A stretch of 38,590 nucleotides of DNA from a virus. The position numbers were made by a program, and so were the translations under genes. Under the pieces are notes generated by a model, which saw only the letters and a list, made by a program, of their open reading frames with translations, ran no database searches and was not told where the DNA came from. The stretch's first letter is position 1; the number at the start of each line of letters is the position of its first letter. Shown here piece after piece: positions 756 through 38,112 of this stretch. The stretch is taken from positions 1 through 38,590 of IMG/VR virus record IMGVR_UViG_3300024262_000100; one strand, 5' to 3'.

Positions 756-962
756 CTAAGCTGTTGCTGCTTTTACTGCCCACATAGCAGCTTCTTCGTA
801 TGAGGTTTGTGCTAAGCTGGCCAACCTTCCGTCTTTTTCTTTTAAAGTTTCACAAAGGTTAATTAACTCCGCTGATTTTTGTTTAATCTCAGAAACAATA
901 TCATTATTATCTGGATTAAATGTTGTGCGAACTCTTTGTTCGCCGATTGTTAATTCTTCCAT
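756..962 (-). CDS. acb2: Acb2-family anti-CBASS protein (cyclic-nucleotide sponge, 68 aa)
   Basis: The protein matches the short Acb2/Tad1-hairpin family by eye. An N-terminal GEQRVRTTFNP segment (residues 7-17) leads into a helix with KSAELINLCE near residues 29-38, then a second helix with LASLAQTSYEEAAMWAVKAA near residues 47-66. The ending AAMWAVKAAT is the family hallmark, and the length is typical. Known members, such as T4 Vs.4 and Pseudomonas phage Acb2, form small oligomers that bind cyclic di- and trinucleotide signals and so keep CBASS effectors from being activated. It lies in the left minus-strand accessory block with other tiny genes and directly downstream of the structured stretch 1016-1181. 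Ligand preference cannot be read from sequence. Confidence 0.85.
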   Translation of the reverse strand: MEELTIGEQRVRTTFNPDNNDIVSEIKQKSAELINLCETLKEKDGRLASLAQTSYEEAAMWAVKAATA

Positions 963-1015
963 ACTTTTTTTTGATTATTCCCGATCTAAAATTGTCGGGT
1001 TTAATAATAATTATT

Positions 1016-1181
1016 GCTGGTAGTGAATGGACAAGGTTTGACTTGCAGTTCACGGTAGGGCTGTCCTTCTGCGTCCTGCGTGTACTTAACAGGATGTTTT
1101 TTCGTTTAAGCAGTAGTAGATTCCTACTTACCCACCCATCTACAGGGTTATGGCTCACTGGCCACACCACCCACTACCAAC
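1016..1181 (-). ncRNA. Candidate structured RNA (166 nt), unknown class
   Basis: This gap between two minus-strand genes is 49% GC against roughly a third in its surroundings. Read on the minus strand, a 10-bp stem closes the domain (GUUGGUAGUG at 1181-1172 with CACUACCAGC at 1025-1016). Inside are five further hairpins: UGGC/GCCA (1164-1151), ACCC-type stem 1148-1134, AGUAG/CUACU with a 4-nt loop (1128-1115), UCCUGU/GCAGGA (1094-1074) and GGACAG/UUGUCC (1066-1029). Two pairs are G-U on the minus strand but would be A-C mismatches on the plus strand, which favours a minus-strand RNA. A rival reading is a decayed or recoded gene; see findings. Confidence 0.45.
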
Positions 1182-1205
1182 AAAATGACTATTAAAGGTT
1201 ATTTA

Positions 1206-1442
1206 TTAAGTAGCTTCGACATTATCTGTTTTGATATTAGTAACCTTAGAATAAGTCACTCCTGACAAAATATCTTTAACAATACCCCAGTACATAAGTA
1301 AAACTCCTATTCTATCTGTTACGAATTCAAAGGCACTTTGTGGTTTTATAGAAAATCCACCATACCAAGTTCCAACAGACCAAATAAATAATCCAATCCA
1401 AAATATTTTAATTCCTGTTATTTTCTTTATTTCTTTATCCAT
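1206..1442 (-). CDS. Small membrane protein (78 aa, two TM segments)
   Basis: After a short charged start (MDKEIKKITG) there is a hydrophobic, Trp-rich segment at about residues 13-32 (IFWIGLFIWSVGTWYGGF). A second hydrophobic stretch lies near 46-58 (IGVLLMYWGIVKDIL), followed by a polar tail, so two membrane passes are likely. No family recognised. It starts 5 bp after the stop of the 94-aa gene upstream and is probably in the same operon. An inner-membrane role such as superinfection exclusion is possible but only a guess. Confidence 0.65.
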   Translation of the reverse strand: MDKEIKKITGIKIFWIGLFIWSVGTWYGGFSIKPQSAFEFVTDRIGVLLMYWGIVKDILSGVTYSKVTNIKTDNVEAT

Positions 1443-2636: not shown

Positions 2637-2774
2637 GGCTTATGATACTTTATTTCCTGTAGAACATATAAATGTAAAATATAGAGTAGGTGGGTTTTTG
2701 TTTTTCCCTACACATCTAGGGTTATTTTTCCCCCGAAATTCTAATATTTTTTTTATCCTTCTACACTGCACTAG

Positions 2775-2813
2775 AAATGGGGGTAGCCAGTTGCTCGGTT
2801 ATCCCCATTTTTT
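2775..2813 (+). terminator. Terminator-like hairpin in the late-operon leader (possible attenuator)
   Basis: AAATGGGG (2775-2782) pairs with CCCCATTT (2803-2810), and the stem continues inward as GUAGCC/GGUUAU with two G-U pairs, giving 14 bp around an 8-nt loop. The right arm runs into TTTTTT (2808-2813). It has the form of a rightward intrinsic terminator but lies 48 bp before the first late gene with no rightward gene upstream. A weaker hairpin, CCCTA/TAGGG (2706-2721) followed by TTATTTTT, precedes it. Together they suggest attenuation of late transcription. Confidence 0.55.
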
Positions 2814-2860
2814 ATGTTATATTGTTTATAGTTTTTTTTATTGTCTAATATTAAAAATAT

Positions 2861-3049
2861 ATGAATGATGACCAAATAAAGATCTATTTTGGCTCGGAAA
2901 GTGGTAAAGAAGTGTCAAAAAAAATGATGGTTTTCCTTACTGAAAACGGATATCAGCCTATTAGTGATGATAAATCACCATTTGTCCTGTATACAAAACG
3001 TATAGAAAAAAAAATAAAAGTATCTAAAAAGAAAAGTAAAAATAACTAA
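2861..3049 (+). CDS. Small hypothetical protein ahead of the terminase (62 aa)
   Basis: Acidic N-terminal half and a strongly basic C-terminal tail (KKIKVSKKKSKNN). It occupies the place where the small terminase subunit normally lies, 5 bp before the large subunit, but is far shorter than usual small subunits and shows no helix-turn-helix that I can see. It could be a reduced DNA-recognition partner or an unrelated protein. First gene of the late operon. Confidence 0.6.
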   Translation: MNDDQIKIYFGSESGKEVSKKMMVFLTENGYQPISDDKSPFVLYTKRIEKKIKVSKKKSKNN

Positions 3050-28350: not shown

Positions 28351-29976
28351 TTACATAGGTTTTTTTTCTTCAGGTATATCAATTATACCAGCCTCAGTAG
28401 TGATAAGAACACCAGCTACAGAAACAGCATTTACCAAAGCAGTAGATATTACTTTTAGCGGATCAATTATTCCGGATTCAATCATATTAACGCTTTTCAA
28501 TTCATCCCCAGAGACATCAAAGCCAAAGCCTTCTTCTGTGATCATCGGCCCTGTTCCATACTCACTAGCACTCTCACCAGCATTCCTAAGTATCTGATTG
28601 AATGGCTCAATACAAGCATTCACAACCAAAACATATCCGATCTCTACACCTTTTTTTTGCCCCTTTAGTTTAATACTTTTTTTGGCAACATCTCTAAGAG
28701 CAACACCACCACCTGAAACTATTCCTTGCTCCATAGCAGATTTACAAGCATTTACAGCATCTTCAACTCTATATCTCACCTCAATAGCATCTGTTTCTGT
28801 CGGTGCGGAAATTTTAATTGAAGCTATACCGCCATTAATATTAGCAAGTCTTTGTTTCAAAAGTTCTTTATTGTAAGAAGAATCTTCGTTTTCGATCTGT
28901 TCCTCAAGCCCTTTTTTATGTGATTCATAAAGTTCTTTTCCCCCTGCTGTTAGTGTAGGAGCAGTAAATATCGTTTCATGTTTTGATGTTCTTACTGATT
29001 TCACCATTGGTAAATCCTGAATAGTGACTCCCTCAACATAAGTTGCTTCCTCTTTGCTGTATGGCTTTGCTCCAATAACAGCCCCTAGATCATCAAAGAA
29101 GTCTTTTCTTTTTTGACCAAAAAGAGGCGCTCTTAAAAGCATCAACTGGATATTATTTCCTTCTGCAAATTTCATAAGCATAGGCACTATTTCTGGTGCG
29201 TAATCATCAGCTAAAACAACCAATTTATTCTCTCCGCTTTTCACCATCGAATCTGCTAGTGCTGCAAAAGCTTTTACACCATTGGAAATTGAGTCTTTAC
29301 ATACTAGAATCCTAGCATTTTCTATCGTTTTATATTGCTGTGTTGCTGCTGCTTGGTCTTTGAACTGCATCCTACAAGCCAAAAAGCCACTATCCATCTT
29401 AATACCATCAACTTTTTCATATGTAACTTTTTCTTCGTGTCCATCTTCAAGGGTTACCGCTCCATCAGCTCCAACTTGATACATAAGTTCACCAATAAGA
29501 TCTCCAAGTTCTTCATCCTGACATGAGATTCTTGCAACCTGCTTAACTTCATCTTCAGTTTCTACTTTTTTTGCTATCCCTTTTAGAGTTTTAACAATAT
29601 TTTCTTTTGCGATATCCATTCCCCTTCTAATATCCGTAGGACTATTTCCATCCTGAATTGCAGCCATAGCTTCTTTTACAAGTGTAGCTCCTAAAAGAGT
29701 CGCACAAGTAGTACCATCACCAGCAATTTCATTAGTTTGAATTGCAGCCTGTTTCAAAGTTTGCGCTCCTAGATTTTCCCACTGATCTGATAAAACAATC
29801 TCTCTAGCAATCGTTACACCATCATTGGTGACGTGTGGTGCCCTGTGTGGACGTTCCATGATAACATTTCGACCCTTTGCCCCCATAGTTTGAATAACAG
29901 CCTTAGAAAGCTTCTCAACTCCATTTAGTAATTTAGTCCGTAATTCTTCACCGTATAGTAAATCTTTCTTGTTCAT
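28351..29976 (-). CDS. groEL: Chaperonin GroEL (541 aa)
   Basis: A phage-encoded 60-kDa chaperonin: it encapsulates unfolded protein and folds it using ATP together with GroES. Key positions align with E. coli: NDGVTIARE (D52 at residue 52), GAKGRNV, AGDGTTCATLL (D87 at residue 87), VEDA (Asp about 406, corresponding to D398), SGGGVAL (about 421-427) and SVAGVLITTEA near the end. The apical domain (about 190-375) is much more divergent than the ATP-binding domains, and the C-terminal Gly-Met tail is missing; it ends IPEEKKPM. Length is about normal. The gene follows groES by 26 bp and has its own terminator. Confidence 0.97.
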   Translation of the reverse strand: MNKKDLLYGEELRTKLLNGVEKLSKAVIQTMGAKGRNVIMERPHRAPHVTNDGVTIAREIVLSDQWENLGAQTLKQAAIQTNEIAGDGTTCATLLGATLVKEAMAAIQDGNSPTDIRRGMDIAKENIVKTLKGIAKKVETEDEVKQVARISCQDEELGDLIGELMYQVGADGAVTLEDGHEEKVTYEKVDGIKMDSGFLACRMQFKDQAAATQQYKTIENARILVCKDSISNGVKAFAALADSMVKSGENKLVVLADDYAPEIVPMLMKFAEGNNIQLMLLRAPLFGQKRKDFFDDLGAVIGAKPYSKEEATYVEGVTIQDLPMVKSVRTSKHETIFTAPTLTAGGKELYESHKKGLEEQIENEDSSYNKELLKQRLANINGGIASIKISAPTETDAIEVRYRVEDAVNACKSAMEQGIVSGGGVALRDVAKKSIKLKGQKKGVEIGYVLVVNACIEPFNQILRNAGESASEYGTGPMITEEGFGFDVSGDELKSVNMIESGIIDPLKVISTALVNAVSVAGVLITTEAGIIDIPEEKKPM

Positions 29977-30002: not shown

Positions 30003-30278
30003 TTAAATTTCAACAGCTAAAATATCTTTAGCATCGACAAAAAACAGTTCTTCCCCATCAATCTCAACTTTATCAGGTGAGTATTTTCTATAATAAACAG
30101 TATCAGCAATTTCTAAAATATCACCTAAGTCCTCACTAATATCTATAATTATCCCCTTTACTGGCATTTGTCCTGATTGAAGTTCCTTATCAATCTCAAT
30201 GTTTCCTAACATTTCCTTTTTAGGCTTGATTAGAACTCTCCCCTCTGCAAGATTAAGAGTTTCTATTTTTTTCTCCAT
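30003..30278 (-). CDS. groES: Co-chaperonin GroES (91 aa)
   Basis: The lid of GroEL. The beta-barrel pattern is clear: GRVLIKPKK (about residues 13-21), PVKGIIIDI (about 39-47), ILEIADTVYYRKYSPDKVEIDG (about 54-75, in two segments) and ELFFVDAKDILAVE (about 77-90), matching the family ending of the type LIxxxDILA. The mobile loop (about 22-38, GNIEIDKELQSGQ) is present but differs from bacterial forms, consistent with an adapted partner for the phage GroEL. Directly upstream of groEL, a common chaperonin order. Confidence 0.92.
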   Translation of the reverse strand: MEKKIETLNLAEGRVLIKPKKEMLGNIEIDKELQSGQMPVKGIIIDISEDLGDILEIADTVYYRKYSPDKVEIDGEELFFVDAKDILAVEI

Positions 30279-32460: not shown

Positions 32461-32462
32461 TT

Positions 32463-32563
32463 GTAGCGGTTAATTATTTAAACAAAAGGGCAGTCAACAA
32501 AACCCGCTACAGATTTAGAGCGTTGACTGCCTTTTTATTTGAACAATATTCCATTTGTAGCGG
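32463..32563. repeat. Three GTAGCGG repeats around the replication control region
   Basis: GTAGCGG at 32463-32469 and 32557-32563 (plus strand, both in a TTGTAGCGGTT context) and inverted CCGCTAC at 32504-32510 inside the loop of the hairpin 32484-32536. The outer copies lie next to the organiser start and beyond the hairpin. They may be operator or initiator-protein sites. Confidence 0.6.
32484..32536. other. 15-bp perfect-stem hairpin upstream of the replication operon
   Basis: AAAAGGGCAGTCAAC (32484-32498) pairs with GTTGACTGCCTTTTT (32522-32536), with one G-U, around a 23-nt loop. Both flanks are A/T runs, so it could end transcription in either direction. It may also serve as an origin structure or a leader attenuator for the operon starting at 32460. 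Confidence 0.65.
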
Positions 32564-32585
32564 TTTAAATTTATTAACTTATATC

Positions 32586-32639
32586 ACTGATCTATATTTT
32601 AAAATAACCACCAAGCAATTTCATTTTATATAGATCAGT
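32586..32639. repeat. 12-bp inverted repeat ACTGATCTATAT
   Basis: ACTGATCTATAT (32586-32597) and ATATAGATCAGT (32628-32639) form an exact inverted repeat with a 30-bp centre. The left arm overlaps the -10 of the leftward promoter, so a bound dimeric repressor or initiator could control it. The centre includes AACCACCAA at 32606-32614 on the plus strand. Confidence 0.6.
32591..32618 (-). promoter_or_regulatory. Candidate promoter for the replication operon
   Basis: On the minus strand, TTGCTT (32618-32613), 16-bp spacer and TATAGA (32596-32591), 131 bp upstream of the organiser start. The inverted repeat overlaps it. Weaker match than the promoter at 38367-38395. Confidence 0.4.
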
Positions 32640-32741
32640 AGTATAAAATAACATCTTTTCTTTTTGCTTATGAATTATACTTCTGCTCTCTAGTTTTTAC
32701 AACTATATGTCAATAGATTAATTTCTAGTTTTTCTATGTTT

Positions 32742-34017: not shown

Positions 34018-34124
34018 TTTTTGTTTAATATTTACTTGATATAAAGGTCAGCATTATTATTATTATTCCCAATGCTAGGAAGCTTATCCTGATTGTGGCT
34101 ATATCATTCTCCATAGTTTTATTT
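34018..34124. repeat. 107-bp direct repeat, copy A
   Basis: Identical, base for base by my reading, to 34561-34667 (offset 543). It contains the whole 29-aa peptide gene, its leader and the last codon and stop region of the 144-aa gene. Copies A and B flank that gene. Confidence 0.85.
34025..34114 (-). CDS. Tiny single-TM peptide, copy A (29 aa)
   Basis: MENDIATIRI then a hydrophobic run (FLALGIIIIMLTFI) and SSKY, stop TAA. The leader AAATAAAACT fits the local start pattern. The peptide is almost entirely one membrane helix, like small holin-, toxin- or membrane-stress peptides. It occurs in two exact copies. Confidence 0.55.
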   Translation of the reverse strand: MENDIATIRISFLALGIIIIMLTFISSKY

Positions 34125-34560: not shown

Positions 34561-34667
34561 TTTTTGTTTAATATTTACTTGATATAAAGGTCAGCATTAT
34601 TATTATTATTCCCAATGCTAGGAAGCTTATCCTGATTGTGGCTATATCATTCTCCATAGTTTTATTT
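34561..34667. repeat. 107-bp direct repeat, copy B
   Basis: Exact copy of 34018-34124. The stretch beyond it (34668-34721) is noncoding and holds CCCTC/GAGGG, a 5-bp hairpin (34693-34712) and no gene that I can see. Confidence 0.85.
34568..34657 (-). CDS. Tiny single-TM peptide, copy B (29 aa)
   Basis: Identical in sequence and leader to the copy at 34025-34114. Perfect identity of leader and coding sequence suggests recent duplication or ongoing gene conversion. Confidence 0.55.
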   Translation of the reverse strand: MENDIATIRISFLALGIIIIMLTFISSKY

Positions 34668-37037: not shown

Positions 37038-37256
37038 TTAATTATTTTCGTTGAGAAATCCCATTGCTCCCTCCATTATTCCTCCTGCCATATCTTTTTG
37101 ACCTTCGTCTAAGCTTTGCCATAAAGCCTTTATCTCTAGGGTGCCTACTTCATCATATTTCCCCTGATTGGCTACGTTATACATCACGCCGCCGAAAGAA
37201 TCTTTCAGGATTTCTTTATAGGTGGGGTGGTTTTTAATTAATTGTATTGTTTCCAT
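37038..37256 (-). CDS. Hypothetical protein with AACCACCAA leader (72 aa)
   Basis: Helical, slightly acidic; has GGVMYNVANQGKYDEVG and DEGQKDMAGGIMEGAMGF. No family recognised. Preceded by the AACCACCAA leader motif (37269-37261). Confidence 0.6.
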   Translation of the reverse strand: METIQLIKNHPTYKEILKDSFGGVMYNVANQGKYDEVGTLEIKALWQSLDEGQKDMAGGIMEGAMGFLNENN

Positions 37257-37325
37257 GTTGTTGGTGGTTAAATTAAATATATTATTTTTATTTGATTAAA
37301 TAGTGTTTTTACTAGTATTGGGCTT

Positions 37326-37634: not shown

Positions 37635-37674
37635 AATTTTTTTGGTGGTTAAAATAAAAATTGTTTTTATTTGA

Positions 37675-38079: not shown

Positions 38080-38112
38080 AATTTTTTGGTGGTTAAATTA
38101 AATAGATATAGA

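Follow-up and report, generated by a model that had tools for sequence, protein, structure and literature searches.

The locus considered here raises the question whether a short GC-rich island in otherwise AT-rich phage DNA encodes a structured RNA, and, if so, what kind of RNA this might be. The island (1001-1181) occupies most of a 243-nt gap between a 78-aa gene and acb2 in the window, i.e. the whole stretch of 38,590 nt that was analysed (IMG/VR record IMGVR_UViG_3300024262_000100). The original prediction read it as a minus-strand RNA with a closing stem of 10 bp and five more hairpins, took the proximity of acb2 as a hint of counter-defence, and doubted a rival reading as a dead gene. 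The GC island and the bias of its G-U pairs towards the minus strand are real, and acb2 carries the expected domain (see table); the RNA starts about 10 nt past the stop codon of the upstream 78-aa gene, for which family searches gave no match.

Folding of the minus strand of 1001-1181 yielded a minimum free energy of -60.9 kcal/mol (z -4.0; none of 200 shuffles as good) versus z -1.8 for the plus strand, which agrees with the strand originally favoured on the grounds of G-U pairs. The fold of minus 1000-1196 (z -3.2 to -4.3 across runs; z -3.64 for minus 955-1215) is built around a closing helix in which 1183-1167 pair with 1014-1030 without a break (17 pairs), so that the proposed closing stem exists and had been drawn too short; with small mismatches or bulges it is extendable to about 29 pairs, the outermost joining 1196 and 1000. 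Among stems with a span of 90-220 this helix ranks first genome-wide (score 38, runner-up 29), and local shuffling of the genome reached a score of 38 in 4 of 240 cases, shuffling of the gap itself in none of 3,000. Judged by composition-corrected folding energy alone, the fold is good and not exceptional: its z of -3.2 (300 shuffles) is equalled by about 20 of 1,284 genome windows (about 1.5%), and comparative evidence was therefore needed. By shuffled z, the strongest fold of this genome (-4.7 to -5.1) is located at 2641-2870 (plus strand); it is a terminator-like hairpin with a T-run (2773-2812), and the gap that holds it, between divergent genes, precedes the terminase operon.

Relatives were obtained by searching 2.9 million viral contigs for exact occurrences of the 3' hairpin TGCAAGTCAAACCTTGNCC, which matched 15 contigs; the scan fixed this hairpin only, and neither the 5' hairpin nor the closing helix nor the register of these parts played a role in selecting contigs. 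The complete architecture, in constant register, was present in 13 of the 15 contigs, and as many match a single-sequence covariance model (R1) over its full length with 17-32 bits. Two of these contigs (L161 and L165) represent one sequence, hence the family comprises 12 distinct relatives and, together with the window, 13 distinct members. One phage (L162) carries a second, more diverged copy; the others have one copy each. Two contigs with the 3' hairpin alone (L155, L156) were excluded from the family, as was a region of L164 (898-1026) that has a paired stem and lacks the motifs.

Other routes to relatives were less productive. Earlier searches for exact copies of GTTGGTAGTGGGTGGTGTGG and TTAAACGAAAAAACATCC had no useful outcome, which fits both patterns lying in variable parts of the RNA. 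The large terminase, the portal protein and o1448 as protein anchors retrieved no relatives from the viral contigs, and the RNA is absent from capsid relatives (about 43% and lower); the window phage is thus without close kin in the viral contigs searched. A blast search of 50,697 named phage records (30-nt query including the 20-nt 3' motif) found no exact copy, and annotation pipelines will therefore have missed the family; the best hits were partial matches of 90-92%, and the two that were checked, in Aeromonas phage 1233 and Salmonella phage ZCSE2, are not members. No member was found with R1 in about 395 sampled Bacteroidota genomes and about 790 more from two orders, or with the family model R2 in two other phyla (165 and 157 genomes), all under strict filters, in a small sample and with no positive control among cellular genomes; a lone 19-bit R1 match (L143) is at chance level and lacks the motifs. 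The family is certainly undersampled, and a search pattern that consists of P3 would have missed diverged members.

The common core consists, in this order, of the closing helix P1, a 2-nt linker, hairpin P2, a variable insert of 55-154 nt, and hairpin P3, which abuts P1. The consensus of P2 is GCGG-ACAGUGAG-CCGU (loop near ACAGUGAG) and that of P3 is GCAAG-UCAAAC-CUUGC. In all 13 distinct members P1 follows directly after P3 and stands 3-4 nt before the GG of P2. The five additional hairpins originally proposed are accounted for in part: P2 and P3 are conserved in the relatives, and the others fall within the insert, which shares no convincing sequence with the window (2 of 12 comparisons gave p 0.01-0.02 before correction) and contains no convincing conserved structure. 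The positions in the window, and the neighbours of the other members, are collected in the table.

Table. Features of the RNA locus in the window and neighbours of the RNA in other members.
Locus	Feature	Positions	Strand	Basis or remark
Window	Whole structured RNA, extended closing helix of about 29 pairs	1000..1196	minus	Fold of 955-1215, pair list
Window	Core RNA	1011..1185	minus	End-to-end match to family model R2, 83.6 bits (expected, as the window is among the 13 sequences used to build R2)
Window	P1 closing helix, 5' arm, 17 unbroken pairs	1167..1183	minus	Helix covaries in 12 other members
Window	P1 closing helix, 3' arm	1014..1030	minus	Fold, pair list, covariation
Window	P2 hairpin close to 5' end, UGUGGCCAGUGAGCCAUA	1149..1166	minus
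Window	Variable insert, predicted hairpins without conservation	1049..1148	minus	55-154 nt among members
Window	P3 hairpin CUGCAAGUCAAACCUUGUCC, stem GCAAG/CUUGU, loop UCAAAC, no linker to P1	1029..1048	minus	Search pattern
Window	acb2 (Acb2/Tad1 hairpin domain), next gene downstream	756..962	minus	PF24729, E 1.4e-13
Window	Upstream gene, 78 aa, possible membrane protein	1206..1442	minus
L151	Large terminase subunit within ~2 kb			E 2.2e-87
L159	Small terminase subunit within ~2 kb			E 1.4e-14
L162, second copy	Large terminase subunit 170 nt away
L162, first copy	HNH nuclease neighbour
L163	Large-terminase homologue within ~2 kb			tblastn
L153	DNA methyltransferase neighbour			40 nt to next start codon
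L152	Replication initiator-like protein neighbour			35 nt to next start codon
L158	HNH nuclease neighbour
L164	Holliday-junction-type nuclease neighbour
L161	RNA between tRNA genes			Cluster with TROVE/Ro60-like protein and UvsX

Among the 13 distinct members, changes on both sides were observed for 17 of the 20 P1 pairs and for three of the four P2 pairs. The whole structure has 89.6% of its cells paired (68.3% when shuffled), with a covariation score of 0.601 compared with 0.196 +/- 0.024 for shuffled alignments (0 of 500 as high) and at most 0.194 for a slid alignment. The alignment underlying these values joins the two conserved ends of the 13 sequences and omits the insert, and it leans towards structure since the arms were set in register beforehand; the register is identical in all members despite this. 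When P1 arms are kept with their own partners, 16-20 of 20 pairs form (mean 18.2), compared with a mean of 11.0 and a maximum of 16 for arms swapped between members (156 combinations). The stem pairs of P3 are nearly unvarying, so that its support consists of sequence and of one compensated change (CCAAG/CUUGG in the first copy of L162); P3 being the search pattern, its near-invariance is partly imposed by selection, and 'invariant' is an upper bound. A pseudoknot between the P2 loop and a CUG motif had been inferred as well and was dropped, as the loop variants ACUGUGAG and GCCGUGAA break the pairing.

The closing helix is thus kept by compensatory changes across unrelated phages, and the window region is almost certainly a member of a real RNA family. 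Its novelty was examined by the Rfam search that the original prediction had called for: with Rfam 15, no match overlapped the element in the window (E up to 10) or any member (13 member loci at the gathering threshold, and L164 at E up to 5). An antisense action on Escherichia coli 16S and 23S rRNA was rejected, as complementarity did not exceed that of shuffled sequences. The RNA family is previously unrecorded, as measured against Rfam and a non-exhaustive coverage of other descriptions in the open-licence literature, and it occurs in a dozen or more uncultivated phages that are unrelated in other respects. It is uncommon for RNA families with clear covariation to match nothing known, and phage families of this kind are especially under-sampled. 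One of the phages bearing the new RNA also contains a Group I intron (L153, 3186-3440, minus; RF00028, 82.8 bits).

At all loci inspected the members are intergenic and have the same direction as the flanking genes. The distance from the RNA to the next gene ranges from about 35 to 790 nt, and the neighbours are unrelated between members; some of the records are short fragments, for which the evidence on neighbourhood is incomplete. Neither a sigma70-type promoter above chance (consensus sigma70-type for all, and also Bacteroidota-type for the window) nor a terminator was detected at the ends of the element, consistent with processing from longer transcripts. One contig (L161, 515-1984 and 2130-3119) encodes a phage TROVE/Ro60-like protein with a vWA domain, adjacent to a tRNA gene cluster and a Fic-domain protein.

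The linkage to acb2 is not conserved, and acb2 is judged to lie outside the RNA system. The RNA is absent, with nothing similar in sequence or structure, from 80 acb2 loci in viral contigs and five from named phages, and likewise from 42 acb2 loci of bacterial genomes (R1 only); conversely, acb2 was not found in the DNA fetched around the other members. The counter-defence role proposed on grounds of proximity found no support, and the adjacency in the window was not used as evidence. In the acb2 neighbourhood of another locus (L018, 2950-3380), repeated GTTAG / CTAAC palindromes flank small genes upstream of acb2 and resemble integron attC-like cassettes.

We propose that the structured noncoding RNAs of this new tailed-phage family act in trans, are cut from longer transcripts and bind a partner through P2 and P3, a complete reading in which we place about evenly balanced confidence. 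The RNA would be transcribed together with the neighbouring genes and then excised, for which an RNase III-type enzyme cutting within the long double helix P1 is a plausible means; release from longer transcripts is suggested because the ends are without promoters and terminators. P1 carries P2 and P3 side by side at its inner end, with the insert of variable length between them, and this platform may bind a conserved protein of the host or the phage. Since sequence is retained in P2 and P3 alone, a contact with a constant partner is suggested, and near-constant hairpins amid unlike neighbourhoods and helix sequences point the same way; as a working principle the partner-binding platform could turn out either way. 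Action in trans, as opposed to a leader function, is probable because the neighbours vary between members.

The main rival, for the window copy in particular, is a cis-acting leader, in which the structure would regulate the following gene (acb2 in the window phage) at the level of translation or stability. The window RNA fills the gap from the upstream stop codon to acb2 on the same strand and ends 38-49 nt ahead of the acb2 start with no terminator between, and the short spacings to the next start codon in L152 and L153 would also suit a leader. Against it stand next genes that are unrelated between members, distances of up to about 790 nt, a copy between tRNA genes (L161) and acb2 relatives that do without the element; a leader function for the family is, overall, a minority possibility that deserves to be taken seriously.

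A packaging-associated RNA or site, by analogy with the pRNA of phage phi29, is improbable. The family shares with pRNA its phage origin, a length of about 170 nt and a closing helix, and a terminase gene lies within about 2 kb in L151, L159, L163, the second copy of L162 and the window. However, the remaining members lie beside methyltransferase, replication, HNH nuclease or tRNA/UvsX genes, the nearby terminases belong to ordinary large-subunit families with no phi29-type ATPase, the positions vary, and Rfam gives no match for the family; the proximity to terminases in about five of 13 members is suggestive only.

Still less can be said for a DNA element, i.e. an inserted mobile inverted repeat or a protein-binding cruciform, which we regard as very unlikely. 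Distinct GC content and inverted repeats at the ends would be expected of such an element, and a covarying helix is possible in DNA, too; however, conserved G-U pairs (U-G at one P1 position in nine of 13 members) suit RNA, every copy inspected is co-directional with its flanking genes, there is a single copy per phage (L162 excepted), and the repeat arms differ wholly between phages, unlike those of one mobile element. A target-site duplication at the window copy was sought as a sign of insertion, and nothing convincing was seen beyond a 2-nt coincidence.

Decayed protein-coding sequence can be practically dismissed: the minus-strand frame ending in TSNNYY and interrupted by three stops is exactly as originally described, its last 34 codons are protein-like and some chance DNA matches fall in the same frame, but its codon score of -0.275 lies under 99.4% of true 34-codon coding windows of this phage and is typical of out-of-frame DNA, searches of Pfam, PHROG, NCBIfam, PDB and phage records returned nothing for it, the single real protein sharing a decapeptide with it is unrelated to the other matches, which use other frames, and the insert lengths of homologues are not multiples of three. 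DNA matches from the sampled genomes had at first appeared frame-consistent; their true coding frames differ in all but one case. The stems covary among the relatives and no homologue has an intact frame, which favours the RNA and bears out the doubt that the original prediction had cast on a dead gene.

The window genome has further features of its own. It contains two 107-nt direct repeats (34018-34124 and 34561-34667; 100% identical, 543 nt apart) and, in a phage of 38.6 kb, a GroEL homologue (28351-29976, minus) that shares 34-36% identity with the GroEL proteins of bacteria and other phages, with a gene of GroES size (30003-30278, minus) following it. An intergenic region at 32461-32660, where the fold z is low and several inverted repeats occur (arms 32567-32597 and 32628-32658), is a possible replication origin or regulatory site. 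A motif of the TTTTGGTGGTTAAA type occurs three times (37255-37287, 37636-37668 and 38080-38112), the latter two copies directly upstream of minus-strand start codons.

With the family model, the members and their coordinates at hand, the function of the RNA becomes testable, and known systems provide points of comparison. The staphylococcal phage cabRNA is likewise a structured RNA of phage origin and is connected to CBASS, which it is known to trigger; it comes from terminase genes (PMC10686824). Unlike this product of coding sequence, the RNA described here is intergenic, forms a conserved family, and has acb2 beside the window member only.

The layout also resembles tRNA and tmRNA-like domains. 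A 2-nt linker separates the closing helix from the first arm, which has 4 bp and an 8-nt loop, and the 5-bp last arm stacks on the closing helix without a linker; the order P2, P3 resembles that of D-arm and T-arm in tRNA. Differences are a closing helix of at least 20 bp, a last-arm loop of 6 nt instead of 7 nt, and no shared anticodon arm; ARAGORN found no tRNA or tmRNA at the element, and Rfam no tRNA match. There is a small chance that phages make this RNA to imitate the tRNA elbow, with P2 and P3 standing in for the D-arm and T-arm on a lengthened, acceptor-like helix; such a mimic might capture or divert a host tRNA-binding protein or RNA-decay machine (in one lineage the Ro60-like protein) and possibly protect against tRNA-targeting or CBASS-type defences.

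In bacterial Y RNAs a tRNA-like domain is combined with a closing helix that binds Ro60. The family shares with those of the YrlA type a closing helix formed from both ends and, by our own reading, a tRNA-like arrangement at its inner end; furthermore, a TROVE/Ro60-like gene lies about 550 nt from the RNA in the L161/L165 lineage. Y RNAs serve as tethers between Rsr and PNPase, and a tRNA-like domain is present in YrlA (PMC7790460). On the other side, no Rfam Y RNA model matches the members, the conserved sequence of the family is that of the hairpins at the inner helix end, and TROVE was seen in one lineage (two of 16 records, several of the 16 being fragments); a Ro60 supplied by the host could also play this part. 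The tRNA-like layout and the Ro60-like neighbour are leads only.

GOLLD and ROOL of bacteria are, like the present family, orphan structured RNAs; they reportedly occur in phages and near tRNA genes. Both exceed the present RNA several-fold in length and have no sequence relationship to it, and Rfam, which includes both, yields no match to the family. Structures of GOLLD, ROOL and OLE are given in PMC12286853. Orphan structured phage RNAs as such therefore have precedents in GOLLD and ROOL, and it is the RNA family that is new.
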